Shown here: positions 3 to 63,258 of the stretch, piece after piece
Position numbering within the stretch: position 1 is the first letter of the stretch
Layout: every line of letters begins with the position of its first letter
Source of the DNA: Bacteroidota bacterium
GTDB lineage: Bacteria > Bacteroidota > Bacteroidia > UKL13-3
DNA: 64,000 nucleotides
Assembly (NCBI GenBank): GCA_027487835.1
Contig: JAIYCU010000037.1
Location: 98,712-162,711, forward strand
Direction of reading: 5' to 3'
The notes under the pieces: model-generated
The model's input: only the letters and a program-made list of their open reading frames with translations
What the model was told of the DNA's origin: nothing
The model's database searches: none
Made by a program: the position numbers and the translations under genes

Positions 3-2963
3 AATGGCAATTGGGTACAAGGCAATAGTGCCAATAAACCACCCGCAATTGGGCCTTATGATTGCATAATGGGCGGCCCTTCAAATGCAAAGAATGTGAT
101 GACCATTGGTGCTGTAAATAAAATTGTGAGTGGCTGGTCAAAATCTTCTGATGTAGTCATGAGCTCCTTCAGCGGTTGGGGCCCTACAGATGATGGTAGA
201 ATTAAGCCCGATGTAGTGGCAAATGGGGTGTCGGTTTATTCTAGCACCAGCACCAGTAATACCGCTTATGCCAATTTAAATGGTACTTCAATGGCCACGC
301 CAAATGCAAGTGGCTCTGCTTTGCTAATACAACAACACTATAATAACTTAAAGAGCGCTTACATGCGCGCCTCCACTTTAAAGGGACTCATTATCCATAC
401 GGCAGACGAGGCAGGCGCAAATCCTGGTCCTGATTACACCTTTGGCTGGGGATTAATGAATACTGATAAGGCTATTTCTGTTGTTTCGGATTCCCTTAAA
501 AATAGCCTTCAACAACTTAGCTTGTCGCCGAATGCAACCTATACCTATTCGTTTTTTGCAGATGGAACTTCGCCCATTCGTGCCACCATCTGCTGGACAG
601 ATAGACCTGCAAATCCTTTGTCGGCTGCCTTAGATGCACCCACCAAAATGTTGGTAAACGACTTAGACATTCGCTTGCGTAGAAATTCAGACAATACCAA
701 TTTCTTGCCTTATATATTAAATCCGGCTTCGCCTGCAAGTGCGGCAACTACTGGTGATAATAATACAGACAATACAGAAATGATTCACCTGGGCACCCCA
801 ACCGCGGGCCTTTATACTATTACCATTACGCATAAAGGGGCTTTAACAGGTGGTGCGCAGCCATATGCCTTACTTGTTTCGGGCATTACCCCTAAGCCAA
901 CTGCTGGTTTTACAAGCAATGTTAGAACTGTTTGCATGAACCAAAATGTTAGCTTTACCAATTTATCTGTTGGAGGAGCTTCAAGAATGTGGTATTTCCC
1001 AGGCGGAAACCCTGCTACTACTAGTGCCTTAAATCCAACTGTTTCTTATCCTGCCCCTGGCAGTTATCCAGTGGCCTTGCGCATTAGCTCAGCCAATGGG
1101 TATGATTCAATTTATGTAACAGATTATATCTCGGTAGGTGGTATTAGCCTTCCAATAGATGAAACGTTTGAAAGCAATTCAGCTACTAGAAGTTTATGGA
1201 CCATTGATAATTTACAAAATGATAGCACTTGGCGCTTATGGAACATTGCAGGCACTAGCCCTGGGAATACGGCTATGGGCATTAATAATTATGATGTAAC
1301 TACGCAGTTTTATACCGATAGAATTGTTTCCCCTGTGCTCGACTTTAGAGGCTTAAGCAGTGCGAGCTTGCAATTTCAGCATGCTTATACGCGCTATGAC
1401 AATACAACTACCGATTCATTAATAGTATTAATAAGCACAAACTGCGGTACTACCTATACTCGCTTAGGCGCTTATGGCGAGAATGGTAATGGCACCTTTG
1501 CCACTGGACCAGATAATACGTTTACTGCAGTTAATGCTTTTATTCCTTCAAAGCCTGCAGATTGGTGTGGTGGTGGTTTAGGAGCGGCATGCAATAGCTA
1601 CGACCTTTCATCCTTTGTAGGTAATGCGAATGTGCGTATTCGGTTCGAACAAAAAACCAATAATGGAGGTAACAATTTATTCATTGATAATATCAAAATC
1701 TTAGGAACACCCTTAACACCTGTAGCCAGATTTTATACCTTAACCCCAACCGTATGTGTGGGCGATGAAGTACAATTATTAGATTCCTCTTATAATCAAC
1801 CTAAAGAATGGACATGGTATGTGAGTGATGCAGATACCCTCATTTATAAAGTTCGTAGTCCACGCGTTAAGTTCTTAAGTTCAGGTGCAAAAACCATTTC
1901 ATTAGTTGTTAAAAATGCAACAGGGCAAGATAGCTTGGCAAGAGTTTCTTATATCAATGTGTTGCCATCGCCAGCGGCACCTTCGTTAACGTCTTCAAAA
2001 GGCAGTGCAGTTTGTGATGGAGATAGCACCCTTCTTGCAACCAATGCAAGTTCTAATTTTATTTGGTATAAAAACAACTTGGCGCAATCAGGCTTAGGTA
2101 CTTCGTTTACAACCAAAGAAGAAGGGGTTTATTTTGTAAGAACTAGGGGTACAAATGGCTGTTGGTCTAAGAGTGATGAATTAAATTTACAAGCAGCAAG
2201 CACCCCAGCCAAACCTTCTATTACAAAAGATTTAACCGGTACGCAGTTTTGTGAAGGAGGTAGTTTTAATCTTACCTCTAGCGCCCTCACAGGCAATCAA
2301 TGGTTAGTAAATGATACTATTTTTAGCACAGCAACAAATAGAATTTTGAACTTTAATGCGGCAGGTAAATTCAAGGTAATGGTAAGCAATAAAGGCTGTA
2401 CAAATACTTCTGATTCAATTATTATAGCCATGTTACCTCGCCCACAAACAGGAGAATTGAGCGGTAAAACTTGGGCTGTAAAGGGTGATACTGCGAGGTT
2501 TAGTGTGATGCCAGGCATAACCGGTTCTGTATTTAATTGGACCCTTACTGGAGGAACAATAGAGGCAGGAGCTACCACGCCTGAAGTATTAATTCGATTT
2601 GGTTCAACCAATGCTGCCACTGTAAATGTGCAAGAAAATGGCAGCAATGGTTGTAAAGGCATTACTAAAACAATCAATGTAAACTTAGTAACAACAGCCT
2701 TGGCCTCTTACCAAATGAATGAGTTTAAATTATTTCCAAATCCTGCTAGCAATGTGTTAAACATACAAGTGAGTGGACTAGCAGCCAATGCAGAAATTAA
2801 GATTAGTTTATATAATGTGTTGGGTCAAGAAGTGAAACATGAACAAGTAAAATATAATGTTCAGGGTTTCGGTTTGAACCTAAATGATTTGACACCGGGT
2901 GTTTATGTGATTAAAGCAGAGGTAGGCGGAAAAGTATTCACTAGAAACTTTGTAAAGCAATAG
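3..2963 (+). CDS. S8 (subtilisin-like) serine peptidase with PKD-like domains and C-terminal T9SS sorting domain; 5' end lies outside window
   Basis: Frame open to window start; NGTSMATPNASG active-site Ser motif; PKD-like segments (VSFTNLSVGG...); C-terminal 'FKLFPNPASNVLNIQV...GVYVIKAEVGGKVFTRNFVKQ' typical of type A T9SS CTD. Confidence 0.9.
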   Translation, partial: NGNWVQGNSANKPPAIGPYDCIMGGPSNAKNVMTIGAVNKIVSGWSKSSDVVMSSFSGWGPTDDGRIKPDVVANGVSVYSSTSTSNTAYANLNGTSMATPNASGSALLIQQHYNNLKSAYMRASTLKGLIIHTADEAGANPGPDYTFGWGLMNTDKAISVVSDSLKNSLQQLSLSPNATYTYSFFADGTSPIRATICWTDRPANPLSAALDAPTKMLVNDLDIRLRRNSDNTNFLPYILNPASPASAATTGDNNTDNTEMIHLGTPTAGLYTITITHKGALTGGAQPYALLVSGITPKPTAGFTSNVRTVCMNQNVSFTNLSVGGASRMWYFPGGNPATTSALNPTVSYPAPGSYPVALRISSANGYDSIYVTDYISVGGISLPIDETFESNSATRSLWTIDNLQNDSTWRLWNIAGTSPGNTAMGINNYDVTTQFYTDRIVSPVLDFRGLSSASLQFQHAYTRYDNTTTDSLIVLISTNCGTTYTRLGAYGENGNGTFATGPDNTFTAVNAFIPSKPADWCGGGLGAACNSYDLSSFVGNANVRIRFEQKTNNGGNNLFIDNIKILGTPLTPVARFYTLTPTVCVGDEVQLLDSSYNQPKEWTWYVSDADTLIYKVRSPRVKFLSSGAKTISLVVKNATGQDSLARVSYINVLPSPAAPSLTSSKGSAVCDGDSTLLATNASSNFIWYKNNLAQSGLGTSFTTKEEGVYFVRTRGTNGCWSKSDELNLQAASTPAKPSITKDLTGTQFCEGGSFNLTSSALTGNQWLVNDTIFSTATNRILNFNAAGKFKVMVSNKGCTNTSDSIIIAMLPRPQTGELSGKTWAVKGDTARFSVMPGITGSVFNWTLTGGTIEAGATTPEVLIRFGSTNAATVNVQENGSNGCKGITKTINVNLVTTALASYQMNEFKLFPNPASNVLNIQVSGLAANAEIKISLYNVLGQEVKHEQVKYNVQGFGLNLNDLTPGVYVIKAEVGGKVFTRNFVKQ

Positions 2964-2978
2964 CTTTACAAAGTTTCT
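2943..2978. terminator. 16-bp perfect inverted repeat (loop AATA) spanning the stop codon of the peptidase gene
   Basis: AGAAACTTTGTAAAGC aata GCTTTACAAAGTTTCT read directly; no T-run directly after it, so terminator role uncertain. Confidence 0.5.
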
Positions 2979-2981
2979 GAG

Positions 2982-7259: not shown

Positions 7260-10200
7260 ATGAGCCGCACGAAGAAAAACAATGAGCAGAAGGGCCTCCG
7301 GGTTGAGCGCCACTTCACCAAGGATGGAGTGAACGTGTATGACATGTTCACCTATGATTACCGCACCTCTGTGATTAAAAATCCAAATGGGAGTGTAGTA
7401 TTTGAAATGAACAATGTAGAAGTACCTAATTTCTGGAGTCAGGTGGCTACAGATGTGTTGGCACAAAAGTATTTCCGCAAAGCGGGCGTTCCACAAGCAG
7501 ATGGAAGCAGCGGCAGAGAGACGAGCATTAAGCAGGTTGCCCATCGTATGGCGCATTGTTGGATGAAGTGGGGCCAAGACTATGGTTATTTTGACACTAC
7601 AGACGATGCTCAGGTTTTTTATGATGAATTAGCTTACATGGTTGTAGGTCAGTATGCTGCGCCAAACTCACCACAGTGGTTTAATACAGGATTGCACTCT
7701 TCTTATGGCATTACTGGTAAACCTCAAGGACATTACTTCGTAAACCCTAAAACAGGTAATTTAGAAAAATCAACTTCTGCTTATGAGCGTCCTCAACCCC
7801 ACGCTTGTTTCATTTTATCAGTTGATGATGATTTAGTAAATGAAGGCGGCATCATGGATTTATGGGTACGTGAGGCTCGTATCTTTAAATATGGTTCAGG
7901 TGTAGGAACAAATTTTTCTAAAATTCGTGGTGCGCAAGAAAAACTTTCAGGTGGCGGTTCATCATCAGGCTTAATGAGCTTTTTGAAAATTGGTGACCGT
8001 GCAGCGGGAGCGATTAAATCTGGCGGAACTACCAGACGTGCGGCTAAAATGGTGTGTTTGGATTTGGATCACCCAGAAATTGTAGAATTTATAAATTGGA
8101 AAAAGGCAGAAGAAAAGAAAGTAGCCGCATTAATTGCAGCTGGCTATCCTAGCGATTATGAAGGAGAGGCATATGCCACTGTTTCAGGTCAGAATAGTAA
8201 TAACTCTGTGCGCATACCTAATGCCTTTTTTGAAGCCCTTAAAGAAGGTAAAGATTGGGAATTAAAAGCCCGCACAGATGGCAGAGTAATGACCACTATT
8301 CCTGCTAAAGATTTGTGGGATATGATTGGCGATGCCGCTTGGGCATGCGCAGATCCGGGAGTTCAGTATGATTCTACCATTAATGAATGGCATACATGTC
8401 CAGAAGGTGGTCGCATTAATGCGTCTAACCCATGCAGCGAATACATGTTCTTAGACAATACCGCTTGTAATTTGGCGAGCTTAAACCTTATGCGTTTCTT
8501 TAACACAGAAACATTGGCATTTGATGTAAAAGCTTATGAGCATGCAGCGCGTTTATGGACTATGGTGCTTGAAATCTCTGTTTTAATGGCACAGTTTCCT
8601 TCGCCAGAAGTGGCGCAATTAAGCTATGAATACAGAACTTTGGGTTTAGGATATGCAAATCTAGGTAGTGTACTTATGGTAGCTGGTATACCTTATGATA
8701 GTCCGAAAGCCTTTGCATGGTGCGGCGCACTAACCGCTATATTAAATGGTGTGGCTTACCAAACATCAGCAGAAATGGCTAAGTACCTTGGTGCCTTCCC
8801 TAAATTTGAAGATAATAAAGAGCATATGATGCGTGTAATGCGTAATCATCGCTATGCTGCTTATAATGCTACGGATGCCTATGAAGAATTAACCATTAAA
8901 CCAGTAGGGATTGACCCTAAATATTGCCCAGATTATTTGTTAACTTCTGCATGCAATAATTGGGATTTGGCAGTTCAAATGGGAGAGGCGCATGGTTACA
9001 GAAATGCCCAAGCTACTGTGATTGCTCCAACCGGTACCATAGGATTAGTTATGGATTGCGATACCACTGGTATTGAGCCTGATTTCGCCTTGGTTAAATT
9101 TAAGAAATTATCTGGTGGAGGGTATTTTAAAATCATTAACTCAAGCGTACCAGCAGCCTTGAAAAATTTAGGGTATTCTCCAGTTGAGATTGATGCCATT
9201 ATAAAATATGCTACAGGTTCGGCTTCTCTACATGGTGCCCCTTTCATTAATCCAGAGTCGCTAAAATTCCGTGGCTTTACTGATGAGGAAATTGCTAAGT
9301 TAGACAAAGCAGCTGCGGGAGCTTTTGAAATTGGTTTTGCTTTCAACGTGTGGACACTTGGCGAGGCTTGCTTGCAGCGACTTGGGTTCAAACCGGAAGA
9401 ATACAATAGCCATAGCTTTAACTTGCTAAGAAAACTAGGGTTTACCCGTCAAGAAATTGAAGCAGCTAATGATTTTATCTGTGGAACCATGACGGTTGAG
9501 GGAGCGCCTTTATTGAAAGACGAACATTTGCCTGTTTTTGATTGTGCAAACAAATGTGGTAACAAAGGCGAGCGATATATTGCAGCTACAGGCCATATCC
9601 GTATGATGGCGGCAGCACAACCATTCTTAAGTGGTGCAATTTCTAAAACCATTAACCTACCAAATGAAGCTACTGTTGACAACATTAAGGAGTGTTATCA
9701 AATGAGCTGGGAATTAGGCCTAAAAGCCAATGCCCTATACAGAGATGGATGTAAGTTGAGCCAGCCTTTGAGCAATAAATCAGATGTAAAAGACGAAGAA
9801 GAAATTCAAGATGCAGTAGAGCAAGTGCTAGGAGAAGCCGCCCACAAACCAGTTGGTGAGTTAAGTCCAGAGCAAGTTTTAGAAGCCGCAACTGCCATCC
9901 TTAATAGAACACACGATACCGCTTTCAAGCATAAATTAGCAGGTGTTGTAGCACGTAAGACCTTGCCAGGAAAACGTGCTGGATTTACCCAAAAGGCAAC
10001 GGTTGGTGGTCAAACTATCTTTGTGAGAACAGGTGAATATGAAGATGGAACTTTAGGAGAAATCTTTGTTGATCTGCACAAAGAAGGCGCTACTTTACGC
10101 TCTTTAATGAACTGTTTCTCTATTGCAGTTTCTTTAGGCTTACAATATGGTGTGCCATTAGAAGAATACGTTGACAAGTTTACCTTTACCCGTTTTGAAC

Positions 10201-10643
10201 CAGCAGGTATGGTTACAGGTCATGATAATATCAAGCAATCTACTTCTATCATCGATTATATGTTCAGAATGTTAGGTTTTGAATATTTAGGTAGAGAAGA
10301 TTTTGTTCAGGTTGAACCAAATGATACGCAAAGAGCAAGTTTGGCAGTAAATGTGCACAAGTCGAATAACTTAAATTTGAACCCAATGGCTAAGCCTGAT
10401 GCAGAAGTAGGGGCAAGTTTAAGTGCGCAACCGATTGGATTTTACAAGCCAATTGAAACCAAAGCAGAGGCAATTGCCACCGTAGCGGTTGCCAGTGGCT
10501 TAGAAGGACCAATGGACCAAGTGAGTGAAATGAACAAGCGTATGGGTGATAGCCCTGCTTGTCCAACATGCGGACACATAACCATTCGCAGTGGCGCTTG
10601 TTATAAGTGCTTAAACTGCGGAACCCAAACAGGTTGTAGTTAA
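7260..10643 (+). CDS. nrdJ: Adenosylcobalamin-dependent (class II) ribonucleoside-diphosphate reductase
   Basis: 1127 aa; [53 protein letters not shown], C-terminal CPTCGH...[14 protein letters not shown]. Confidence 0.95.
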   Translation: [1127 protein letters not shown]

Positions 10644-15004: not shown

Positions 15005-17911
15005 TTATAGTAGACTTCCTAAATCGCCGCTTATGGGTTTCTTTGTGGTTGGATTTGAACTGGAATTTCTTACACTAGAAAGTTTTATGAAAAGATCTGT
15101 AGGATTAAAAGGCTTGCTGATATAATCATTCATGCCTCTTTCTAAAACCTTATTTTTTGCCTCTTCATTTACATTGGCAGTGAGGGCAAAAATGGGTATT
15201 TGTGAATTGAAAGTTCGGATCGTTTTAGCAGCCTCAAAACCATCCATTTCTGGCATTTGAAGGTCCATTAGGATTAAGTCAAATGTCATCTTTTTGGCAC
15301 ATGCAACCGCCTCAAGTCCATTGGAAGCAACGGTTGTATTCGCATTCCACTTTTGCAAGAATTTGCGCGCTACAAATACATTCATAGCATTATCTTCAAC
15401 CAATAAAATTTCCATGCCAGCCAATTGATTTCCATCTGTATCATCTAACACTAGCTTAGGGATTTGTGTTGAATTTGCAATTTTAAGGTTTAGTTTGAAC
15501 CAAAAGGTCGACCCTTTGCCAATTTCACTTTTAACTGCAAGTTGTCCGCCCATTATCTCAATGAGCCTTTTAGTTATTGCGAGTCCAAGTCCAGTACCCC
15601 CATATTTGCGCGTGGTTTCACTAGAAGCTTGCGTAAATTCATCAAAAATGAAATTTAGATGCTGTTCTTCAATTCCAATACCTGTATCTGCGATGCTAAA
15701 TAAAATTTCAACTTCATCTTCATTTAAGGATTGTTTTTGTAAAGAAACTACAACACTACCTGTATTTGTAAATTTAATGGCATTAGAAATTAGGTTACTC
15801 AATATTTGGTTTATGCGCAAAGGGTCTCCTAATATTCCTATTGGTAAATCATTACTTGATTTAAGTTGAAGTCGAATTCCTTTCTCATTGGCTTTGCCAA
15901 TAAAAGCCTTCATGTTGTTTTGAACTAGCTCTAATAGGTCGATAGCACTCGTTTCTAAGTCCATTTTACCAGCGTCTATTTTGCTGAAATCAAGGATATC
16001 GTTTAGTAAGAAAAGTAGGTTATCAGCTGAATATTTGAGTGCTTTTAGGTTTTCCAATTGTTCAGGATTAGGCTTCTCAATTAGCAACAAATTAATAATT
16101 CCTATAACCCCATTCATAGGGGTGCGAATTTCATGACTCATAGTAGCTAGAAAAAGGCTCCTTGCCTTGCTTGCTTCTTGTGCTTTTTCGAGGGCTACTT
16201 TATATTCTTCTTCTAATTTTTTGCGGTAATCAATATTACTAAAAGTTCCAATAGCCCTAGTTGGGTTGCCCTCAGCGTCTGTTTCTGCAATCTTACCACG
16301 GTCTAGAACCCAAATATAGGAACCATCTTCTTTGCGCATTCTGTATTCTTGTTCATAAAAATGAGTTTTGCCTTCTAGGTGATCTACAAACGTATTCCAA
16401 GCGCGTGGAAGGTCTTCGGGATGTACCATTTCTTCCCATGATAACGGTAACTTTTCGAAACTTTTATAACCAAGCATTTCATTTAGAACAGAAGAGAAGA
16501 AACTTTCGTCTGTACTTAAATTAACATCCCAAACGGCATCTCTGCTGCCTGAAAGGGCGTAATTCCACCTTTTTTCTGCTGTTTCTAATTCTAATTGTTG
16601 TTTTACATTTTCTGTAATATTCTCAACAATGCCAAGAATTAATTCAACTTCATTATGGTTATCTAGGATTGGGATTTTAAAAGTACGTGCATAGATAAAA
16701 TCATCTCCCACATCAACGCGCAACTTTTGAATAAGCAGGGGTTCCTTGTCGGCAATTACCATTTCGTCCGTTTGCGTATACAGTTGGATTTCGCCAGAAT
16801 CTTTAAAAATATCTTCATCAGTTTTTCCAATAACCATGGCCTCCGAAATGCCAAAAATGGTTTCAAGTTCTTTGTTCCAAAGGGTATAAACAGCGCCTTG
16901 TTTCACACTTTTTACGAAAACTCCAAGGGGCAAATGTGAAATTAATTTATTAAGAAAAATGCTTTGCTGTTCATGTTTAATGGATTCTTCTTTTCTGGTA
17001 GTGATGTCTTCAATTACAATGGAGACCCTTGGTGGTTGGCTATTTTGAATTTTCCTTAGTTTGGCAGCATAGTGATGTATTCCATCTGCTAGATTGTATT
17101 GATATTCGGCATCAATTGGAATTCCAGTTTGTTTAACTTGTTCAAAATAACTGCTAAGGTTCAATTGAAATGGTTTGTCGAACAGCTCTTCTACTGTTTT
17201 TTCTTTAAAATAGGATTCCTCATAAAACAGCGGAACATTTTCACTCCTCCATACCTTCGTACATTGATCGTTTTCATCCATTTCAAAGATAATTTCCTGG
17301 GTAGAATTGAGCATAAGTTGTAAATTCTCTGTAAGCAGTTGTTGCTCTTGAAAGGCTTTTTTTCTTTGGGTGATATCAATAGCTTTTACTACAATTCCGG
17401 CGGATTGTTCTAGTAACTTTATGGGTGTAATGGTAACTTCAAAATAGCGAAACCCATCCCTGAATTTATATTCAAAATCAAAAGTAAATTGCTCTCCATG
17501 TAAAGCTCTTTTATACCAGCTATTCCAAAGTCTATAGACCGCATGTTTGCCTTCTGGAAATAAAATGCTAACACCTGTTTGCGGGGCTCTTTGCCAAAAG
17601 CCTTTGAAGAGATGGGAAAACACTTCATTAAACGAAATGAGTTTAAAATTGGCATCCACGCACCAAATAGCATCTTTATCATTTTGCATTAAGGCTTGCA
17701 GATTTGCATCCATAAAGCCTGGGTTGTTAGATTTTCCTTCATCCTTTTGGTTCAAACCGAAATACACTGCTAAAAACATTGTAATAATTCCCAATAGCAT
17801 TAAGCTGCCTGAAAACACGTCGCCAGCAACATAGTTTCTTATGGTCGCTAATAAAAGAAACAATAGCGCAAGGGCAGCAGCTAAAAATATGGGTTGTTTA
17901 TGAGCTTGCAT
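15005..17911 (-). CDS. Multi-PAS hybrid sensor histidine kinase with C-terminal receiver domain
   Basis: PAS repeats; MSHEIRTPMNGVIG H-box; NLISNAIKFT; ADTGIGI; GGTGLGLAI; receiver LILMDLQMPEMDGFEAA. Start chosen at MQAHKQPIF (overlaps end of menC). Confidence 0.94.
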   Translation of the reverse strand: MQAHKQPIFLAAALALLFLLLATIRNYVAGDVFSGSLMLLGIITMFLAVYFGLNQKDEGKSNNPGFMDANLQALMQNDKDAIWCVDANFKLISFNEVFSHLFKGFWQRAPQTGVSILFPEGKHAVYRLWNSWYKRALHGEQFTFDFEYKFRDGFRYFEVTITPIKLLEQSAGIVVKAIDITQRKKAFQEQQLLTENLQLMLNSTQEIIFEMDENDQCTKVWRSENVPLFYEESYFKEKTVEELFDKPFQLNLSSYFEQVKQTGIPIDAEYQYNLADGIHHYAAKLRKIQNSQPPRVSIVIEDITTRKEESIKHEQQSIFLNKLISHLPLGVFVKSVKQGAVYTLWNKELETIFGISEAMVIGKTDEDIFKDSGEIQLYTQTDEMVIADKEPLLIQKLRVDVGDDFIYARTFKIPILDNHNEVELILGIVENITENVKQQLELETAEKRWNYALSGSRDAVWDVNLSTDESFFSSVLNEMLGYKSFEKLPLSWEEMVHPEDLPRAWNTFVDHLEGKTHFYEQEYRMRKEDGSYIWVLDRGKIAETDAEGNPTRAIGTFSNIDYRKKLEEEYKVALEKAQEASKARSLFLATMSHEIRTPMNGVIGIINLLLIEKPNPEQLENLKALKYSADNLLFLLNDILDFSKIDAGKMDLETSAIDLLELVQNNMKAFIGKANEKGIRLQLKSSNDLPIGILGDPLRINQILSNLISNAIKFTNTGSVVVSLQKQSLNEDEVEILFSIADTGIGIEEQHLNFIFDEFTQASSETTRKYGGTGLGLAITKRLIEIMGGQLAVKSEIGKGSTFWFKLNLKIANSTQIPKLVLDDTDGNQLAGMEILLVEDNAMNVFVARKFLQKWNANTTVASNGLEAVACAKKMTFDLILMDLQMPEMDGFEAAKTIRTFNSQIPIFALTANVNEEAKNKVLERGMNDYISKPFNPTDLFIKLSSVRNSSSNPTTKKPISGDLGSLL

Positions 17912-18950: not shown

Positions 18951-19861
18951 GTAATACTAAAAAAAAGCTGAAGGTTAGCACTAATTAAAAAACATGTCAA
19001 GGACAAGTATTTAAGCAAAGGGTCGAAATCTTCTTGCTTTTGAATTCGCCAAGCTACCATCAAATTTAGCATAATTAGCATGGTAATACTAAAGGCTAGA
19101 AAAGGACCGAAATTTTCTTTAATGATAAACAGGGTAAAGCAAGCAATGGGTAAAAGAAGCAAAAGGCTATAATAAATTTTAGCGCCAAATAGACCCAACC
19201 TTACGGCAATGCTATTTTTACCTGCAACCTTATCAGAGTCTATGTCTCTCATATTGTTGAGGTGTAAAACCCCAGTAGACAGTGCGCCAAAAGCCACAGC
19301 CAAAAGCCATGTACTTTGGCTTATGCTAGCGGTTTGTAAATATTGGGTACCTGCCACAGCGGTGAGTCCGAAGAAAATAAATACAGCCACATCTCCAAGT
19401 CCCCTATAACCGTAAGGTCGCTTCCCATTTGTATAGGCAATGGCTGCAATAATTCCAATAATTCCTATAGACAGTAAAACCAAAACACCCACCCATCCAA
19501 TTACTTTGTAAGAAAAGAAAAGTAGAATGCAACCGCTAACAAAAGCTAGGACGGCACTCAGTTTCATGGCATTTTTCATTTCATTCGCACTTATGGTTCC
19601 GGTTTGAACCGAGCGTTTAGGACCCTTTCTTCCGTCGTGGTCTGCGCCATGCACCGAATCGCCGTAGTCATTGGCAAAATTTGAAAGGATTTGAAGGAAA
19701 AGAGCAGTAAGTAATGTAAAAATACTTGTACCTAAAGTTAGTTTTTGTTGTATTTGAACCGCAAAAAGCCCCGCCCAGATGCAAGACATTGATAGAAAAA
19801 GGGTACGGAGGCGCATAGCTTGTAGCCATGCCGAAAATTTGCTTACTTTTGTTTGCTTCAT
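18947..19861 (-). CDS. menA: 1,4-dihydroxy-2-naphthoate polyprenyltransferase
   Basis: UbiA fold: NFANDYGDSVHGADHDGRKGPKRSVQTG; NNMRDIDSDKVAGKNSIAVRLG. Confidence 0.92.
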   Translation of the reverse strand: MKQTKVSKFSAWLQAMRLRTLFLSMSCIWAGLFAVQIQQKLTLGTSIFTLLTALFLQILSNFANDYGDSVHGADHDGRKGPKRSVQTGTISANEMKNAMKLSAVLAFVSGCILLFFSYKVIGWVGVLVLLSIGIIGIIAAIAYTNGKRPYGYRGLGDVAVFIFFGLTAVAGTQYLQTASISQSTWLLAVAFGALSTGVLHLNNMRDIDSDKVAGKNSIAVRLGLFGAKIYYSLLLLLPIACFTLFIIKENFGPFLAFSITMLIMLNLMVAWRIQKQEDFDPLLKYLSLTCFLISANLQLFFSIT

Positions 19862-21671
19862 GAGTCGGCAATTTAAATACATTCGCTTCTTGCTTAAGTA
19901 TCCTGTTTATAAAATTTTTAAACAGCGTACGCAATACATTAGCAACCAGCACTTTCTTATTATTGCTTCGGTATTTGTTTCAATTGTGGTAAGTATTGCT
20001 GCTATTTTACTAAAGTGGTTCATTCATTTTATCGAATCCCTATTACTAAACACAAATATATTGGAGCTAAGTTTGGCTAACTTGTTTTTGCCATTGCTGG
20101 GAATATTACTCTCCTTAACCTTTATTAAGTATTTTTTGAAGGGCAAGAATTTTGAGAAGGGGCTTGCGAGTATTATTTATAAAGTTACCTATAAAAAGGG
20201 AAGAATAGAGCTATATCATACTTATGCCCATTTGGTAACTAGTGCGTTTACAGTTAGTTTAGGAGGGTCTGCAGGTGTTGAGGCTCCAATAGCAGCAACG
20301 GGTTCAGCTATAGGTTCAAACCTTGCCTCTCGTTTTTTTTTAAATGATAATGACAGGAATTTATTATTGGCTTGTGGTGCAAGTGCAGGCATATCTGCAA
20401 TTTTTAATTGCCCAATTGGAGCCGTAATTTTTGCTTTAGAGGTTTTATTGAGAAAGGTTACTGTGCCAGCATTTGTTCCCTTATTAATTGCCTCAGCTAC
20501 TGCCTCTGTTATCAGTAATTTTTTTTACAAGTCGCAAATAATCAGTTTTAGCGCAGCAATTTGGCAATTAAATGATATTCCTTATTACATTTTATTGGCA
20601 ATGCTTTGTGGTGTTTTTTCAATTTATACAATCCGAGTTATTTATGGATTAGAAACTAGATTTAACAATATAAAGCTGAAATATAATAAAGCCATTTTTC
20701 AAGGATTAATTGTAGGTGGATTAATTATGTTTTCACCTTTGCTTTATGGAGAAGGTTATTTTGTAATCAATCAAATTTTGCATAATAAATTTGATGATTT
20801 TATGCAAACTATTTCCCTTCAAAGTAATTTTGGTTTCAATACAGTTTTCCTTTCATTTGTATTAGTTACCATACTATTAAAGCCAGTTGCTGCTGCATTT
20901 ACAGTGAGTGCGGGTGGGAATGGTGGAATTTTTGCACCCTCACTTTTTATTGGCGCCTTAAGTGGTTTGTTTTTTTCTAGAATTGTTAATTTATTAGGTC
21001 TTACAGATGTAAATGAATTAAACTTTGTGGTGGCAGGAATGGCCGGTTTGTTAAGTGGTGTATTAAGTGCGCCATTAACTGGTATTTTTATGATTGCTGA
21101 AATAGCAGGAGGGTATACATTATTGGTGCCATTAATGATAGTTTCAGCAGGTAGTTTTTTTGTTACACGTTTGTTTGAACCGAACTCTATTTATACAAAA
21201 AAATTGGTTCAAAGCGGTTTATTACAAAAGGCGCCTGAATTGGAACTGTTGAAAACAGTGAATGCAGAATCTGTTTTAGAAACTAATTTTCCAACACTTG
21301 ATGTTGATGTAAATTTAAGAAGCGTAACGCAATTAATCAGTGGAACTCGAAGAAATGTTTTTCCTGTAATTAGAAAAAATGGGCGTTTAGCCGGTATTGT
21401 AAGTATGGGAGATTTACGTCCTTATCTTTTTAGAACTGATTTGTATGATAAATTAACCGTAAAAGAGTTGATGCATACAGACGTAATAAAGGTGAATCAA
21501 ACAGATTCTTTGCACCATGTTTTACAAGTACTCGAGGAAAATCCAGGTGTGTTTTATATCCCTGTTCTCCATCAAGAAAAGTATGTTGGTTGTATATCTA
21601 AAAGTGTACTCCTTAATAAGTATAAAGAATTAATGCAGGAATGGATGGCACAGAACCAAGATTTATCCTAG
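19860..21671 (+). CDS. ClC-family chloride channel/transporter with CBS domains
   Basis: GGSAGVEAPIAATGSAIGS; GASAGISAIFNCPIGAVIFALEVL; GGNGGIFAPSLFIGA; C-terminal CBS pair. Confidence 0.93.
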   Translation: MSRQFKYIRFLLKYPVYKIFKQRTQYISNQHFLIIASVFVSIVVSIAAILLKWFIHFIESLLLNTNILELSLANLFLPLLGILLSLTFIKYFLKGKNFEKGLASIIYKVTYKKGRIELYHTYAHLVTSAFTVSLGGSAGVEAPIAATGSAIGSNLASRFFLNDNDRNLLLACGASAGISAIFNCPIGAVIFALEVLLRKVTVPAFVPLLIASATASVISNFFYKSQIISFSAAIWQLNDIPYYILLAMLCGVFSIYTIRVIYGLETRFNNIKLKYNKAIFQGLIVGGLIMFSPLLYGEGYFVINQILHNKFDDFMQTISLQSNFGFNTVFLSFVLVTILLKPVAAAFTVSAGGNGGIFAPSLFIGALSGLFFSRIVNLLGLTDVNELNFVVAGMAGLLSGVLSAPLTGIFMIAEIAGGYTLLVPLMIVSAGSFFVTRLFEPNSIYTKKLVQSGLLQKAPELELLKTVNAESVLETNFPTLDVDVNLRSVTQLISGTRRNVFPVIRKNGRLAGIVSMGDLRPYLFRTDLYDKLTVKELMHTDVIKVNQTDSLHHVLQVLEENPGVFYIPVLHQEKYVGCISKSVLLNKYKELMQEWMAQNQDLS

Positions 21672-23761: not shown

Positions 23762-23838
23762 GGGCCTATAGCTCATTCGGTTAGAGCAACTGACTCATAA
23801 TCAGTAGGTGCCTGGTTCGATCCCAGGTGGGCCCACCA
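23762..23838 (+). tRNA. tRNA with CAU anticodon (Met, or Ile2 if lysidine-modified); encoded CCA
   Basis: Cloverleaf: GGGCCTA TA GCTC ATTCGGTTA GAGC A ACTGA CTCATAA TCAGT AGGTG CCTGG TTCGATC CCAGG TGGGCCC ACCA. Confidence 0.93.
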
Positions 23839-23901
23839 AAGAAAATAATTAAGGAGTTTTGATATTTATCAAAACTCTTTTTTTTTAACTTCCGACACCT
23901 A

Positions 23902-25044: not shown

Positions 25045-25181
25045 ATAATTATTTATTGTTCGATTTCTTTCGACCACTTTTACAAAGTTTAATTAATATT
25101 TGAATAGTGATTTTAGTTATTTTTATGACATTATTTCATTTTTAAATGGAAATATTTCATTTTTTAAATAAATAAAATTCA

Positions 25182-25189
25182 TAGTTTTG
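25182..25189 (+). promoter_or_regulatory. TAnnTTTG -7 box upstream of the PqqD-like gene
   Basis: TAGTTTTG in very AT-rich spacer, about 23 nt before ATG 25212. Confidence 0.5.
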
Positions 25190-25211
25190 TTTAATACATT
25201 CTAAATTAATT

Positions 25212-25634
25212 ATGACATCAGAAGTGTTTTATAGCATTGATACCACAAAAGTTGTTTTTGAAAAGTTTGAGGACGAAACTGTATTAATCAACCTTGAGAA
25301 TGGCAATTATTATGGAATTATGAAAGTAGGTAAGGATATTTTAACATTGATGGAGCAAGGAATTTCTAAACAAAATCTTGTCAGTGCTATAGCAGCCTCC
25401 TATAGTCAAGAGATAAACAAAGTTGAAGATGATATTCAATTATTCTTATCTGCCTTGTTAACGGAAGGTATAATTCAAACTTCGGAGTATGGTTCCAATA
25501 ACATCACATTTTTAGATAATAATGAGATTTATGAAATACCTGTATTAGAAAAATATTCAGATATGCAGGATTTAATTTTATTGGATCCTATTCATGATGT
25601 GAGTGCTAAAGGTTGGCCAAATAAAAATCAATAA
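25212..25634 (+). CDS. PqqD family (peptide-chaperone-like) protein
   Basis: ETVLINLENGNYYGIMKVGKDILTLMEQGISKQNLVSAI...VEDDIQLFLSALLTEGII. Confidence 0.8.
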   Translation: MTSEVFYSIDTTKVVFEKFEDETVLINLENGNYYGIMKVGKDILTLMEQGISKQNLVSAIAASYSQEINKVEDDIQLFLSALLTEGIIQTSEYGSNNITFLDNNEIYEIPVLEKYSDMQDLILLDPIHDVSAKGWPNKNQ

Positions 25635-25663
25635 TCGAATAATTCACCCCACATATAATTTTA

Positions 25664-39663: not shown

Positions 39664-41589
39664 ATGTTGAGAAATTTATTATTTTTATTTTCAGCCTTGG
39701 TGTTGATTAGTAGTTGCACAAACGATACAGAACAAACTGCAGCCCAAGCGCCCGTGATTCCCATGCAAGATTTTTTCCGTAATCCTACGAATGCCTATTT
39801 TGTGCTTTCACCCGATGGGAAAAAGATTGCCTTTACAAAGCCTGTAAACCAACGAATGAATATTTTTTGTACGGTAATTGGCTCTAAAGATACCATTCAG
39901 CTAACCAATTTTACCGATAGAGACGTGCAAGGATATTTTTGGAAAGGGGATAAAATAGTTTACATCAAAGACAAAGGGGGAGATGAAAATTTCCATTTAT
40001 ATGTAATTGGTTCAAACGGTTTGAACCAAAAGGATTTGACGCCGTTTGAAAAAGTAAATGTGCAAATTGTGGATGACTTGGTTGCACAAGAGAATGAATT
40101 GCTAATTGGCATGAATAAGGATAATCCTGAATTATTTGATGTCTATCATTTAGACCTACAATCAGGAAAAATAACACTTGAGGCACGTAACCCAGGTGGT
40201 GTTTCACAATGGCTTACCGACCATAATGGCAATTTACGCGTGGCGGTTCAAAGTGATGGTGTTAATAGTGTTATTTTATATCGAGAAAATAAGAATACGC
40301 CTTTTAAACAAGTGCTAAGAACAACTTTTAAGGAGGGTGTTCAGCCATTAATTTTCACTTTTGATAATAAAAATCTTTATGCCTTATCTAATCTTAACAG
40401 AGATAAATCTGCATTAATAAAATTTGATGTCGAAAACGGAAAGGAATTAGAAGTTCTATTCGAACATCCCGAAGTAGATATTGATGGAATTGAATATTCA
40501 AGACTTCGAAAGGTTTTAACAAGCGCAGATTATTCTACTTCAAAATCAGGACAACATTTCTTTGATCCAATTATTAAAGGTATTTATCAAGATTTAAAGA
40601 AAAAGTTGGGAGAGCAGGATGAAATTATATTAACAGGGCATAACCAAAATGAGGATTTATATTTAGTGAGAACCATGAGTGATAAAACACTTGGAACAAC
40701 CTATTTGTATAATACAAAGGATAAGTCGTTAATCAAAATTGCCGATCGCGCCCCTTGGCTCAAAAGAGAAGAAATGTGTGATATGAAACCAGTTTCCTAT
40801 AAGGCAAGTGATGGGCTTCAAATTAATGGCTACCTTACCATACCAAAAGGAGTTGATGCAAAAAATTTACCTGTAATAATTAATCCTCATGGCGGTCCTT
40901 GGGCTAGAGATGAGTGGGGATGGAATCCAGAAGTTCAATTTTTGGCCAATAGGGGATATGCGGTTTTACAAATAAATTTTAGGGGTTCTACGGGTTACGG
41001 AAGAAAGTTTTGGGAAGCAGGCTTTAAGCAATGGGGTAAAAAAATGCAAGACGATATAACTGATGGGGTAAATTGGTTAGTATCAGAAGGAATTGCTGAT
41101 CCTAAAAGAGTTGGCATTTATGGGGCAAGTTATGGCGGTTATGCCACACTTGCAGGAATTACCTATACGCCAAATTTATATGCCTGTGCGGTTGATTATG
41201 TGGGTGTAAGTAACCTATTTACTTTTATGAAAACTGTGCCACCTTATTGGCAACCCTTTATGCAAATGATGTACGAAATGGTTGGAGATCCTGTTAAAGA
41301 TTCTGTGCTTTTACATGAAGCTTCACCGGTATTTTTTGTAGATAAAATTAAGGTTCCTTTATTTATTGCACAAGGTGCAAATGACCCGCGTGTTAACAAA
41401 GCAGAAAGTGATCAGATTGTGGAAGCCTTAAAAAAGAGAGGCGTTAAAGTAGAATATATGGTTAAGGAAAATGAAGGTCACGGTTTTGGAAATGAAGAAA
41501 ATCAATTTGATTTTTATGGCGCAATGGAGAAGTTTTTAGCCAAACATTTAGGTGGCCGCATTACGCAATCCGCAACACAACCAGAATGA
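39664..41589 (+). CDS. S9 family prolyl oligopeptidase-type peptidase
   Basis: HGGPWARDEWGWNPEVQFLANRGYAVLQINFRGSTGYG; GIYGASYGGYATL; GANDPRV; ENEGHGF. Confidence 0.95.
   Translation: MLRNLLFLFSALVLISSCTNDTEQTAAQAPVIPMQDFFRNPTNAYFVLSPDGKKIAFTKPVNQRMNIFCTVIGSKDTIQLTNFTDRDVQGYFWKGDKIVYIKDKGGDENFHLYVIGSNGLNQKDLTPFEKVNVQIVDDLVAQENELLIGMNKDNPELFDVYHLDLQSGKITLEARNPGGVSQWLTDHNGNLRVAVQSDGVNSVILYRENKNTPFKQVLRTTFKEGVQPLIFTFDNKNLYALSNLNRDKSALIKFDVENGKELEVLFEHPEVDIDGIEYSRLRKVLTSADYSTSKSGQHFFDPIIKGIYQDLKKKLGEQDEIILTGHNQNEDLYLVRTMSDKTLGTTYLYNTKDKSLIKIADRAPWLKREEMCDMKPVSYKASDGLQINGYLTIPKGVDAKNLPVIINPHGGPWARDEWGWNPEVQFLANRGYAVLQINFRGSTGYGRKFWEAGFKQWGKKMQDDITDGVNWLVSEGIADPKRVGIYGASYGGYATLAGITYTPNLYACAVDYVGVSNLFTFMKTVPPYWQPFMQMMYEMVGDPVKDSVLLHEASPVFFVDKIKVPLFIAQGANDPRVNKAESDQIVEALKKRGVKVEYMVKENEGHGFGNEENQFDFYGAMEKFLAKHLGGRITQSATQPE
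40009..40027. repeat. 19-bp perfect dyad formed by overlapping copies of the GGTTTGAACC motif
   Basis: GGTTCAAAC-G-GTTTGAACC inside the S9 peptidase gene. Confidence 0.85.
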
Positions 41590-42249: not shown

Positions 42250-43482
42250 ATGTTTGAAATTGACAAATGGCAGGAAATCTTCGCTAACATAAGTAAGAAT
42301 AAACTTAGAACATTTCTTACAGGCTTTAGCGTGAGTTGGGGTATATTTATGCTAATTGTTTTATTGGGAGCTGGTAATGGTTTAAGAAATGGGGTAGAAG
42401 CACAATTTAGCAGAGATGCTACTAATAGTATGTGGGTTAATGCTGGAAAGACCTCTTTGGCATTTGAAGGCTATCAACCCGGAAGAGAGATTAAATTTAC
42501 TAACGAGGATTTTGAATTGGTTCAAACCACCTATAAAAATTACGAACATATTAGCGCTCGTATGCACATGTGGGATATTAACCTTATCAGTTATAAAAGC
42601 AGGTATGGTAATTTTAATATGAAAGGAGTGCATCCAGGCATGGTGTTTCCTGAAAAAATTGAAGTAGTAAAAGGTAGATTTATTAATGATTTGGATATTG
42701 CTGAAACCAGAAAGGTAGCCTGTATCAGTAAGAAAATTGTTGAAGAATTATTTAAACAAGAAGAGCCGATAGGGAAAGAAATTAATATCAATGGCGTTTT
42801 GTTTAAGGTTATAGGTATATTTCATGATGATGGAGGCGATCAAGATAATCGCCGCACTTATGTGCCAGTTTCTACTACTCAAAAGGCATTTACAGGCACC
42901 AATAGAATAGATCAAATTGTGATGACCGTTGCCCAAGAAGACATGGAAAAAACGGATGCCATTACTGAGGATTTGAGAAATATATTGGCTGCTAAGCATC
43001 ATTTTGACCCAAAAGATCAAAAGGCCGTATTTCTTTGGAATAACCTAAAAGAATATCGTAAAATTATGGGTTTGATGGATGGCATTTCTATATTTATTTG
43101 GATTATTGGAATAGGAACTCTCATTGCAGGAATTGTAGGGGTTAGCAATATCATGATGATTGTAGTTAAGGAAAGAACCAATGAAATTGGAATAAGGAAA
43201 GCACTAGGTGCAAGCCCTAGAAGCATTGTTGCGCTTATTCTTCAAGAATCAATCTTTATAACCTCATTATTTGGCTATACAGGTTTGATTGCAGGCGTAT
43301 TTTTAGTTGAAGCTTTTCAAAAATTTGTACCAGATTCTGATTTTTTTAGTAAGCCTGAAGTGGAATTAAATGTAGCCTTACAAGCCATGTTATTATTAGT
43401 ACTAGCTGGATTGTTAGCGGGTTATTTTCCAGCAAGAAAGGCCGCAAAAGTTGAACCCATAGAAGCGTTAAGGGCAGATTAA
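42250..43482 (+). CDS. MacB-like ABC transporter permease
   Basis: KNKLRTFLTGFSVSWGIFMLIVLLGAGNGL...GVSNIMMIVVKERTNEIGIRKALGA...YFPARKAAKVEPIEALR. Confidence 0.94.
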   Translation: MFEIDKWQEIFANISKNKLRTFLTGFSVSWGIFMLIVLLGAGNGLRNGVEAQFSRDATNSMWVNAGKTSLAFEGYQPGREIKFTNEDFELVQTTYKNYEHISARMHMWDINLISYKSRYGNFNMKGVHPGMVFPEKIEVVKGRFINDLDIAETRKVACISKKIVEELFKQEEPIGKEININGVLFKVIGIFHDDGGDQDNRRTYVPVSTTQKAFTGTNRIDQIVMTVAQEDMEKTDAITEDLRNILAAKHHFDPKDQKAVFLWNNLKEYRKIMGLMDGISIFIWIIGIGTLIAGIVGVSNIMMIVVKERTNEIGIRKALGASPRSIVALILQESIFITSLFGYTGLIAGVFLVEAFQKFVPDSDFFSKPEVELNVALQAMLLLVLAGLLAGYFPARKAAKVEPIEALRAD

Positions 43483-45882: not shown

Positions 45883-47283
45883 ATGAAGTACCTTTGTCTT
45901 TTAATTATTTATTTTCTTTGTCTAGGTCCATTTGCCTCGGGGCAATCAAAATTAATTTGCACCCTATATTTTGAAAATGGTGAAAGTGTGGTTTTGGTTA
46001 ATGAAAAAACTAAACTCTTAAATTCCTTTGTTAAGTTAGATACTACACGGCGCTATAACTTAGAAATTGTTGCTTATGCAAATCCAATAGGAAACGAGAA
46101 GGCAAATTTAAAATTGGCAGAGAATAGGGCTAATTCGGTTCAAACCGTAATATTAAAACGTTTGCCAAATGCCAGTTTAACTATAAAGCCTATAGGCGAG
46201 ATAGGTTCAACCAATACAGATTCATTGAGGTTTTATAGAAAAGTTGATGTGTTTAGAAGTCCATATGTTAAACCCAAACGTAATTTGGCAAAAGACGATA
46301 TACTAATTGGAGAAAGTATAGTTATAAGTGGAATTTTATTTGTGGGTGGAAGTTCTGAGTTACTATCAAGTTCTTATAAACCACTCGATTCCTTGGTGAG
46401 TGTTTTAAAAGCCAGAGGAGAATATGTAGTATCTCTGTTAGGACATTTAAATCCCTATGGTGATGATTGGTATAAGATAAAAGGAAATGAGAATTTTGAT
46501 GCAGTTGATAATCGAACGGGTTTGAAAAATTTATCATTGGCAAGGGCAAATGTAGTTATGGACTACCTAATTGCACAAGGTATTGAAAGCAATAGAGTTG
46601 CTTGTTTTGGACTCAAAGGCACACAACCCATTAATAAAGTAGAGGTTGGTTTGAACCGAAGAGTTGAAGTAGTTTTACGAAGGGTACTGATAAAAGATAA
46701 ATCGAGTGATTGGGAGCAAGTGATTGAGCGTTCGAATAAAGAAAAGGCTTTGGTTGAAAGTGCATTTAACATGAAGGCCATTGCGGCGCTTGATACTATT
46801 TATTTTCGTGATCAAGCCTTAAGAAATGAATTATCTTCTATTGATAGGAAGGCAGCTGATAGTGAAGAAAAGAGTAAAAAAATTTGGGAAGTGCTTGCTA
46901 AATCTGACGAAGAAAACCTTATAGTGGTGGAGGATTTACTCAATAAATATGGTTGGCTTGGGAGATCTAGCATTGGGTATAGAGGAGAGATAACACTTTT
47001 TTTGGTTGTGCAACATGCACCTTTGGCTAAACAAAAAAAGTATGTTGAATTAATGAAAGCCGCTGTGGCCAAAAATGAAGCAAGTGCCATTAACCTTGCA
47101 TATTTGGAGGATAGAATTTTAGTTAATGAAGGAAAGAAGCAAGTTTATGGCACGCAAGTAATTTTTAATAAAAGTACTGCTAAATATGAAGTGTTGCCTG
47201 TTATAGATGAACGTAGGTTAAATGAAAGAAGACTAAAGTTGGGGCTTCAGCCAATTGAGGATTATCTCAAGAGTTTTGATTGA
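45883..47283 (+). CDS. OmpA-family C-terminal-like domain protein
   Basis: YNLEIVAYANPIGNEKANLKLAENRANSV; LARANVVMDYLIAQGIESNRVACFGLKGTQPINKVEVGLNRRVEVVLR. Confidence 0.7.
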   Translation: MKYLCLLIIYFLCLGPFASGQSKLICTLYFENGESVVLVNEKTKLLNSFVKLDTTRRYNLEIVAYANPIGNEKANLKLAENRANSVQTVILKRLPNASLTIKPIGEIGSTNTDSLRFYRKVDVFRSPYVKPKRNLAKDDILIGESIVISGILFVGGSSELLSSSYKPLDSLVSVLKARGEYVVSLLGHLNPYGDDWYKIKGNENFDAVDNRTGLKNLSLARANVVMDYLIAQGIESNRVACFGLKGTQPINKVEVGLNRRVEVVLRRVLIKDKSSDWEQVIERSNKEKALVESAFNMKAIAALDTIYFRDQALRNELSSIDRKAADSEEKSKKIWEVLAKSDEENLIVVEDLLNKYGWLGRSSIGYRGEITLFLVVQHAPLAKQKKYVELMKAAVAKNEASAINLAYLEDRILVNEGKKQVYGTQVIFNKSTAKYEVLPVIDERRLNERRLKLGLQPIEDYLKSFD

Positions 47284-53368: not shown

Positions 53369-54133
53369 CTAAGGCATTGCTTTGATAATATCAACAAAAC
53401 TTCTGCTTTGTAAGGCTGCTCCACCCACTAATGCACCGTCAATGTCTGGGGCAGCAAATAATTCTGCAGCGTTCTCTGCTTTTACGCTTCCTCCATATTG
53501 AATGGTAATTTGTGCGGCAAGCTCATTGCCATATTTAGCACTTATAAGTCCTCTAATAAATGCATGAACTTCTTGTGCTTGAGCGGTACTTGCTGTTTTG
53601 CCTGTGCCAATGGCCCATACTGGCTCGTAAGCAATCACAACTTGTTTCATTTGATTGTCATCTAAATGAAATAAGCCGTCTTTAATTTGTGTTTCTAAAA
53701 TAGAAAAATGACTATTAGATTCGCGTTCTTCAAGGGTTTCGCCACAACAGTAAATTGGGTTCAAACCGGAACCCAACACTGCATTTACTTTTTGTGCTAA
53801 CCAATCATTATGCTCTCCAAAATATTGTCTGCGCTCACTATGGCCGATAATAACATAAGTTGCACCAATACTTTTTAGCATTTCTGTGCTAATTTCCCCT
53901 GTATAGGCTCCACTCGCATGATTGCTGCAGTTTTGTGCGCCTGAGCTTACATTTTGTGTGTCAGAAATTAATTTTGAAATAGCAGCAATATGCGTAAAAG
54001 GTGGAATTAAAACTACATGGGCACCTCCTTGGTATTCATCTTTAACCATGTTAACCACTTCAGAAGCAAGTGCTAAGCCTTCTTCAAAGTTCTTGTTCAT
54101 TTTCCAGTTACCAGCAATAATCTTCTTTCTCAT
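53369..54133 (-). CDS. tpiA: Triosephosphate isomerase
   Basis: KKIIAGNWKMNKN; IIGHSERRQYFGE; AYEPVWAIGTGKTA; QYGGSVK; GALVGGAALQ. Confidence 0.98.
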   Translation of the reverse strand: MRKKIIAGNWKMNKNFEEGLALASEVVNMVKDEYQGGAHVVLIPPFTHIAAISKLISDTQNVSSGAQNCSNHASGAYTGEISTEMLKSIGATYVIIGHSERRQYFGEHNDWLAQKVNAVLGSGLNPIYCCGETLEERESNSHFSILETQIKDGLFHLDDNQMKQVVIAYEPVWAIGTGKTASTAQAQEVHAFIRGLISAKYGNELAAQITIQYGGSVKAENAAELFAAPDIDGALVGGAALQSRSFVDIIKAMP

Positions 54134-59111: not shown

Positions 59112-59963
59112 TTGCAAGCTATATTAAGAAAAAATTCATTGAATTGCGGTGGGAAATTATTGGTTTTGGATCAACCCATAATCATGGGAATTTTAAATGC
59201 TACGCCTGATAGCTTCTATAGCGAAAGCCGATTAATAGAAGTAGAAAGCGCGATTGAAAGGGCTGGAATCATGCTGCAAGAAGGAGCCACTATAATAGAT
59301 ATTGGTGGTCAGTCTACTCGCCCAGGTGCCGACCTAATTTCGGAGCAGGAAGAAGCAGATCGTGTTCTGCCTGTTATTAATGCCATTCATCAGGCAATTC
59401 CAGAACTTATCATTTCAGTAGATACTTTTTATGCCTCAGTAGCTAAGGCTGCTGCTAAATTGGGTGCAGGGATTATTAATGATGTTTCTGGAGGCGAAGA
59501 CCCTGAGATGTTTGCTGCTGTAGGATTGTTAGGTTTGCCTTATGTCCTAATGCATCGCCCAGGTGATGCAAAAGAAATGCAGCAACTTACTCATTATGAA
59601 GATATTTTTTTAGATATTGGAAATTATTTTTCACAGAAAATTGGTACACTTCAACAACTAAATGTAAAGGATATTTTAATTGATCCTGGTTTTGGTTTTG
59701 GTAAAACCTTATCCCAAAATTATCAATTATTAGCTGGTTTGAACCAATTTAAAATATTTGAGTTGCCAATGATGGTGGGTGTCTCACGAAAAAAAATGAT
59801 TCAACAAGTTGTTGGTGCTGATGCAAATAACGCGCTCAATGGTACCACAGCCGTACACATGGCAGCGTTGCTGGCAGGTGCAAATATGCTGCGTGTGCAT
59901 GATGTAAAAGCGGCTAAACAATGCGTTGATATTTATGTGGCAATTGAGCAGCAAATTTCTTAG
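59112..59963 (+). CDS. folP: Dihydropteroate synthase
   Basis: IMGILNATPDSFYSES; IIDIGGQSTRPGA; GAGIINDVSGG; ILIDPGFGFGKTLSQNYQLL; TTG start. Confidence 0.97.
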   Translation: MQAILRKNSLNCGGKLLVLDQPIIMGILNATPDSFYSESRLIEVESAIERAGIMLQEGATIIDIGGQSTRPGADLISEQEEADRVLPVINAIHQAIPELIISVDTFYASVAKAAAKLGAGIINDVSGGEDPEMFAAVGLLGLPYVLMHRPGDAKEMQQLTHYEDIFLDIGNYFSQKIGTLQQLNVKDILIDPGFGFGKTLSQNYQLLAGLNQFKIFELPMMVGVSRKKMIQQVVGADANNALNGTTAVHMAALLAGANMLRVHDVKAAKQCVDIYVAIEQQIS

Positions 59964-60797: not shown

Positions 60798-60799
60798 AA

Positions 60800-62152: not shown

Positions 62153-62154
62153 GC

Positions 62155-63258
62155 ATGAAGAATAGCGTTGTTGTCATATTGTTTTTAAGCTTATTGGTTA
62201 GTTACTCGGCCTGTAAAAAGGAACCTGTAGAAACCAAGGAAGATAATTATGCGTATGACCCAACCCCATTTGATTTAAAGCTTCCTACAAACTTAGGTTG
62301 GACAAGTTTCCCAATTCCTTCAGATAATCCATTAACAAATGCAGGGGTTTCATTAGGTAGAAAATTGTTTTACGACCAAATTCTATCTTCAAATGGCACC
62401 CAAAGTTGCGCTACTTGCCATCAACAAGCATTTGGTTTTACAGACCCTAATCAATTTAGTTTGGGTGCTTTAGGACAAGTTGGTGAAAGGCACTCAATGC
62501 CACTTTTTAATCTTGCATGGGCAGAAAAATATAATCTATCAGGTCATCGTTTTTTCTGGGACGGAGGAGCAAACGATTTAGAAAGGCAAGCGCTAGGGCC
62601 AATCATAAATCCAATTGAAATGTCTAATCCTTCATTAGTACCAGTATTAGAAAGATTACAAGAACATTCAGAATATCCAAAATTGTTTAATAAAGCATTT
62701 GGTTCCGACTCCATTACCTCTGTAAAATTAGCCAAGGCATTGGCTCAATTCGAAAGAACATTAATAAGTTCAAATAGCCCGTGGGATAAGGCCGAAAGAC
62801 GCCAACGTCTTCGTACGCAAAGTGAAATTAATGGGATGCAAATTTTTGTGAGCGAAGAAAAAGGCGATTGCTTTCATTGCCATGGTAACTTGAGTTCCCC
62901 TTTTTTTACAGATTATCTTTTCCATAATAATGGATTAGATGCTAATCCAAAGGACCCAGGTCTTTTCAGAATAACTGGCAATCCTGCTGATTTTGGAAAG
63001 TTTAAAACCTCCTCGCTTAGAAATCTTGCCTTTACTGCACCTTACATGCATGATGGCAGGTTCAAAACGATTATGGAAGTTATCGAGTTTTATAATTCTG
63101 GGGCCAAAATTTCCCAAACCCTAGATCCCAATATTGCAAAACACCAAAAAGAAGGTGGTTTGAACCTAACACCGCAAGAGAAGATGGATTTACACAACTT
63201 TCTGCTTTCCCTTTCTGATAGCTCTTTTATTTCAAATCCTCAATTTTCTAAGCCTTAA
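62155..63258 (+). CDS. Di-haem cytochrome c peroxidase family (MbnH-like)
   Basis: Two CXXCH motifs: CATCHQ and CFHCHG; lipobox SYSACKKE; TSSLRNLAFTAPYMHDGRFKTIMEVIEFY. Confidence 0.92.
   Translation: MKNSVVVILFLSLLVSYSACKKEPVETKEDNYAYDPTPFDLKLPTNLGWTSFPIPSDNPLTNAGVSLGRKLFYDQILSSNGTQSCATCHQQAFGFTDPNQFSLGALGQVGERHSMPLFNLAWAEKYNLSGHRFFWDGGANDLERQALGPIINPIEMSNPSLVPVLERLQEHSEYPKLFNKAFGSDSITSVKLAKALAQFERTLISSNSPWDKAERRQRLRTQSEINGMQIFVSEEKGDCFHCHGNLSSPFFTDYLFHNNGLDANPKDPGLFRITGNPADFGKFKTSSLRNLAFTAPYMHDGRFKTIMEVIEFYNSGAKISQTLDPNIAKHQKEGGLNLTPQEKMDLHNFLLSLSDSSFISNPQFSKP

Follow-up and report, generated by a model that had tools for sequence, protein, structure and literature searches.

A 64-kb window (the whole 64,000-nucleotide stretch analysed here) from the 3.38 Mb draft genome G000 of an uncultured Bacteroidota bacterium (99.9% complete, 46 contigs) carries 14 exact copies of a 10-bp motif, GGTTTGAACC or its reverse complement GGTTCAAACC. 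Here, we report that the enrichment of this motif is restricted to one uncultured genus, within which it occurs in clade-specific dialects, and that individual copies are conserved at the DNA level between related species. We read it tentatively as a DNA-uptake-type self-recognition signal, the footprint of a genus-specific DNA reader, and would give this reading a probability of about 0.45.

Results

Over the whole G000 genome the motif occurs 655 times (329 + 326), or once per 5.2 kb, compared with 20 occurrences (10 + 10) of the reversed word used as a control. Markov models of orders 3–5, fitted with the motif masked, expect 1.5–3.6 copies on both strands of 457 kb of G000, in which 83 are found. 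In the genes of the same 457 kb there are 74 copies, against a mean of 3.75 (maximum 8 in 100 shuffles) when synonymous codons are shuffled within genes and 4.7 (maximum 10) when the shuffle also keeps the neighbouring bases of each codon, which rules out an artefact of codon or dicodon usage.

The motif is also conserved site by site. Of 35 G000 copies that could be aligned with the sister genomes G007 and G009 (79.5% nucleotide identity), 30 are exact, whereas only 15.7% of ordinary 10-mers are; in the reverse direction the figures are 36 of 49 copies at about 79% identity, with a background of 15–16%. Per-letter identity from G000 to the sisters is 0.94 to 1.00 at offsets 0–9 and 1.00 at a distal A (offset 11), against approximately 0.8 in the flanks, so that the constraint is limited to offsets 0–11. 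Of the five sites lost in this comparison, three have become other enriched forms (AGTTTGAACC, GGGTTGAACC and GGTTCGAACC). Copies within genes encode few, tolerable peptides (GLN, VQT, GSN, FEP and FKP); these five peptide frames, and the confinement of conservation to the motif letters, exclude protein conservation as the cause. The preliminary description of the window had proposed selection or biased gain at the DNA level, and the Markov counts, both codon shuffles and the conservation between sisters support this claim. Between clades, sites are mostly unshared despite enrichment in each genome; hence, sites turn over in the long term while being held firmly in the short term.

Alignment of the 83 copies shows that the recognition unit is longer than the decamer. 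It approximates TTYGGTTYGAACCNAA, an asymmetric near-palindrome of about 13–16 bp, with an A two bases 3' of CC in 82 of 83 copies, C or T directly before GG in 76 of 83 within an upstream T(T)Y, and flanks that are T-rich before and A-rich after the motif but otherwise unrelated. What was first described as a symmetric inverted-repeat decamer is thus only the centre of an extended site, which has a direction and is only partly an inverted repeat. It is not a perfect palindrome, given its TG centre and a near-invariant A at +12 compared with a looser T at -1. Single-letter variants almost never affect TTGA, CC or the distal A, but they are tolerated in the left GGT half, the chief change being GGG in place of GGT, or its mirror ACCC in place of AACC. 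From these patterns we read the unit as two mirror-arranged TYGGKTY half-sites, one strict (TTGAACCNA) and one loose, around a centre of TG, CA or CG; enrichment of the TA-centred form GGTTTAAACC was looked for and none was seen. In G013 the top 16-mer is TTCGGTTTGAACCAAA, with 59 copies in 573 kb.

Enrichment extends to each of the 18 other genomes of the genus, in which the TG form has between 46 and 1,318 copies. Counts are near control level in 18 genomes from 13 other genera of the family and in 23 other families of the class, no enrichment was seen in 197 genomes drawn across the phylum, and a de novo search of four further genera within the family returned no comparable word. The lineage may conceivably live in fresh water. 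Within the genus, the central bases define dialects congruent with an nrdJ tree: a TG clade (G000, G007, G009, G015, G017 and G018), a CG clade (G010, G012 and G016), the only one in which the symmetric form GGTTCGAACC dominates, and a mixed clade (G001, G004, G005, G006 and G014) in which the ratio holds near 2:1, the pattern that equal acceptance of TG, CA and CG would give. Among viral sequences in IMG/VR, 86 stretches carry the motif in scattered fashion and none is motif-rich. A literature search for the motif sequence returned unrelated papers only, and the literature searched contained no uptake sequence in Bacteroidota, in line with the earlier remark that the motif was not known to have been described in this phylum. 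The first 93 kb sampled of G013 (L116–L122) hold further repeated words, for example GTCGTGTCGAAG and GTGCCTGAGC; another, GCTTCGAC, occurs there in clusters and is seldom seen in sister genomes.

Copies are in excess between genes, with 14% of copies compared with 5.4% noncoding DNA in G000 and 41% compared with 10.5% in G013. In G013, close inverted pairs lie between genes, 25–27 bp apart and all in the same inverted order; they are not called intrinsic terminators because no T-run follows. One such pair, with identical inner sequence, is found three times in 5 kb of intergenic, locally duplicated DNA (L309:11369-11439, 12858-12928 and 16206-16276). The motif may be thinner in accessory DNA, defined as DNA with no sister counterpart: core and accessory DNA hold 39 copies in 160 kb and 4 in 32.7 kb in one direction of comparison, and 51 in 179 kb and 13 in 69.6 kb in the other. 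Depletion in mobile regions was among the checks proposed earlier; pooling the two directions puts accessory density at approximately 60% of core density (17 copies, where about 27 would be expected), a modest difference. A strand bias, also raised in the preliminary description, was not borne out, with long contigs near balance (exact copies 13/15, 13/19 and 34/27) and half-sites pooled against the G-rich strand at 351 to 422, which is no more than a slight excess. No convincing regular or helical spacing was found (coefficient of variation (CV) 1.12; random 0.82–1.23). Adjacent exact copies, examined in L305–L324 and in the window plus L089–L108, tend to be oppositely oriented, in 55 of 79 pairs in G000 (55 compared with 24) and 102 of 175 in G013 (102 compared with 73); in G007 alone the count is 54 of 100, which is not significant. 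In the pooled first set this alternation is strongest at spacings of 0.5–3 kb. We know of no motif system that predicts alternating orientation of neighbouring copies.

In the window itself, exact matching returns 8 copies of GGTTTGAACC and 6 of GGTTCAAACC, with starts from 2871 to 63157, as first counted. With strands pooled this is the top-ranking 10-mer of the window, far above the approximately 0.08 copies expected from composition. All 14 lie within open reading frames (ORFs), and the preceding base is C in 8, T in 4, A in 2 and G in none, again as first described. In G009 or L009, 13 of them match in every letter, compared with 1.4 predicted from flank identity. The copies, all exact matches, are as follows.

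2871..2880, + strand: S8-type peptidase ORF 69-2963; identical in G007 and G009
9385..9394, - strand: nrdJ ORF 7260-10643; identical only in G007 and G009, other genomes being without the motif at those codons
13104..13113, + strand: YfhO-like membrane protein ORF 10790-13222; GGTTCGAACC in G012 and G008, TG form in G001, G004, G011 and G017
17749..17758, - strand: hybrid kinase ORF 15005-17938; identical in G007 and G009
19601..19610, + strand: menA-like ORF 18947-19882; identical in G007 and G009
20313..20322, - strand: ClC channel-like ORF 19779-21671; identical in G007 and G009, CG form in G003
31670..31679, + strand: amidohydrolase ORF 31477-33114; identical in G009
40018..40027, + strand: S9 peptidase ORF 39664-41589; identical in G009, with an inverted partial copy TGGTTCAAAC directly abutting
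42519..42528, - strand: ABC permease ORF 42250-43482; identical in G009
46137..46146, - strand: OmpA-like ORF 45883-47283; identical in G009
46648..46657, + strand: second copy, in opposite orientation, in the same OmpA-like ORF 45883-47283; identical in G009
53758..53767, - strand: tpiA ORF 53369-54133; identical in L009, other aligning relatives being without the motif
59736..59745, + strand: folP ORF 59112-59963; identical in L009
63157..63166, + strand: MauG/CCP-type di-haem protein ORF 62155-63258 (PF03150); identical in L009 and L013

The span from 20.3 to 31.7 kb is motif-free. Within it, directly after tRNA-Met, lies an accessory-looking glycosyltransferase and PqqD cluster (23762-30058), which consists of NTP_transf_5, PqqD and an HPr-kinase-like ATPase together with three glycosyltransferases and another NTP_transf_5-like gene; the combination of PqqD, kinase and nucleotidyltransferase is reminiscent of peptide-modifying clusters. 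A secreted-looking protein of 1,459 aa at 48944-53323 has no Pfam match at E 0.001.

A sequence-specific protein probably reads the motif, and no candidate came out of the families searched. The methylase families PF00145 and PF01555 have no match in G000, and PF02384 is missing from the motif carriers G004, G008 and G014, so that one methylase from these three families common to all carriers is unlikely; PF02086 and other families were not searched. The type IV pilus ATPase PF00437 has no full-length match in the genus (one fragment in G003 is over the cut-off), whereas PF00437 is found in other families of the class. A minor-pilin receptor, the only established class of receptor for DNA uptake sequences (DUS), is therefore unlikely. 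Competence without known pilus genes exists in Bacteroidota: that of Riemerella needs ComEC, DprA, a helix-hairpin-helix protein and outer-membrane proteins (PMC8459023). Co-occurrence with competence genes was another check proposed earlier: G000 has an intact ComEC ORF (PF03772, E 1.3e-62), which itself holds two motif copies, but the gene is too common to separate carriers from non-carriers. DUF5689, a Riemerella competence candidate (PMC8459023), was rejected as the reader since its matches are weak, patchy and non-discriminating. A secreted-looking protein of approximately 818 aa (L100:2-1726 and L099; G000:C3:39273-41726) gives a weak six-frame DUF5689 match; its gene adjoins recA- and ssb-like genes and has two motif copies near its 3' end.

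Discussion

The motif possibly lets a cell recognise DNA of its own kind. A protein on the surface or in the periplasm, probably a dimer, would bind the strict half-site TTGAACCNA facing the looser mirror half; fragments bearing the motif would be taken up and recombined more often, and copies would accumulate and be restored through homologous replacement at any position where the encoded protein can accommodate them. The genus-wide enrichment, motif-limited DNA constraint, clade dialects, permissive positions, lack of strand skew and intact comEC are direct observations; we infer the existence of the reader, its dimeric state and a benefit through uptake of kin DNA. In Neisseria, DUS occupy permissive regions of the core genome, form intergenic inverted pairs and have dialects congruent with phylogeny (PMC3630211), and because the footprint here follows the same pattern, an uptake-type signal is the best single explanation. 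The likeness to the DUS of Neisseriaceae (PMC3630211) extends to copy numbers in the hundreds to thousands, taxon restriction, dialects that follow phylogeny, permissive genic positions, intergenic enrichment and inverted pairs (mainly in G013). Unlike DUS, the motif is partly palindromic, belongs to a different phylum and has a putative role in uptake, and a ComP-type receptor is not expected given that the type IV pilus ATPase is missing. Since the genus lacks a full-length pilus ATPase and uptake is predicted by analogy, we do not classify the motif as a DUS despite its DUS-like footprint.

The uptake signal sequences (USS) of Pasteurellaceae have A/T-rich flanks and about 1,000 copies, mostly in genes; they are not dyad-symmetric and depend on type IV pilus proteins. 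The motif resembles them in having a core with A/T-rich flanks, in its copy number and in the mostly genic position of its copies, and differs in its near-dyad form and in belonging to a genus without the full-length pilus ATPase. Several points weigh against an uptake-type signal: the partly palindromic site, unlike either DUS or USS, the missing pilus ATPase and with it the minor-pilin receptor, a comEC too widespread to discriminate, the modest accessory depletion, and the lack of any precedent for an uptake sequence among Bacteroidota in the literature searched.

The near-dyad form, the missing known receptor machinery and the alternation keep a dimeric chromosome organiser as a serious, if less probable, rival. 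In this reading an abundant, homodimeric protein of the cytoplasm, of the nucleoid-associated type, would bind the motif to organise or segregate the chromosome, with each copy under purifying selection. Such a protein would fit TYGGKTY half-sites in dyad around a pyrimidine-purine step (TG, CA or CG, but not TA), the lack of strand skew, the dispersal of copies about every 5 kb, the strong conservation of individual sites and the alternation of neighbours. It fits less well with a spacing that looks random and with distant species of the genus sharing few sites though both are enriched, which is odd for an architectural site, and the intergenic excess and permissive frames suggest accumulation driven by tolerance, not placement.

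Chi and the FtsK-orienting polar sequences (KOPS) are strongly strand-oriented, and the density of Chi in E. coli is similar to one copy per 5.2 kb. The motif shares with them the character of a frequent, short, dispersed word acting at the DNA level, and accessory DNA is somewhat poorer in it, but the near balance of orientation in long contigs, the partly palindromic form and the clade dialects make a Chi- or KOPS-type role, with reading by a translocase or in single-stranded form, improbable. An equally small chance is given to a system like the cyanobacterial highly iterated palindrome HIP1, in which a methyltransferase and mismatch repair would create and keep copies at a palindrome. As with HIP1 (PMC4390886), the motif is highly iterated, near-palindromic, scattered inside genes and taxon-restricted; HIP1 goes with orphan methyltransferases, whereas none of the three methylase families tested is common to the carriers (other families were not searched), and the motif is asymmetric and, at 13–16 bp, longer than HIP1 and long for a methyltransferase site. 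Spread of a small mobile palindromic element, of the repetitive extragenic palindrome (REP) or miniature inverted-repeat transposable element (MITE) type, is the least probable and largely refuted. It would account for the recurring inverted pairs of G013, three with identical inner sequence, yet those three belong to a stretch that has been duplicated locally; elsewhere there is no common flank, most copies are inside ORFs and nothing is shared beyond about 16 bp.

The kinds of hyper-abundant DNA word that are conserved copy by copy and have an understood role are few (DUS/USS, Chi, KOPS and HIP1), and the literature searched holds no case in Bacteroidota. This motif offers clear dialects over 19 sequenced species, with most sites kept between relatives at 79% nucleotide identity, and identification of its reader is amenable to dialect swaps and to comparison of gene content. 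The lack of a type IV pilus ATPase and of a shared methylase in the three families tested points to a hitherto undescribed DNA-reading protein. More specifically, and somewhat more doubtfully than an uptake-type signal as such, the genus may practise a pilus-free recognition of kin DNA, in which DNA marked with a near-palindromic dialect word would be taken up or recombined, dimeric receptors of a new class would recognise the word, and neighbouring marks would tend to alternate in orientation.

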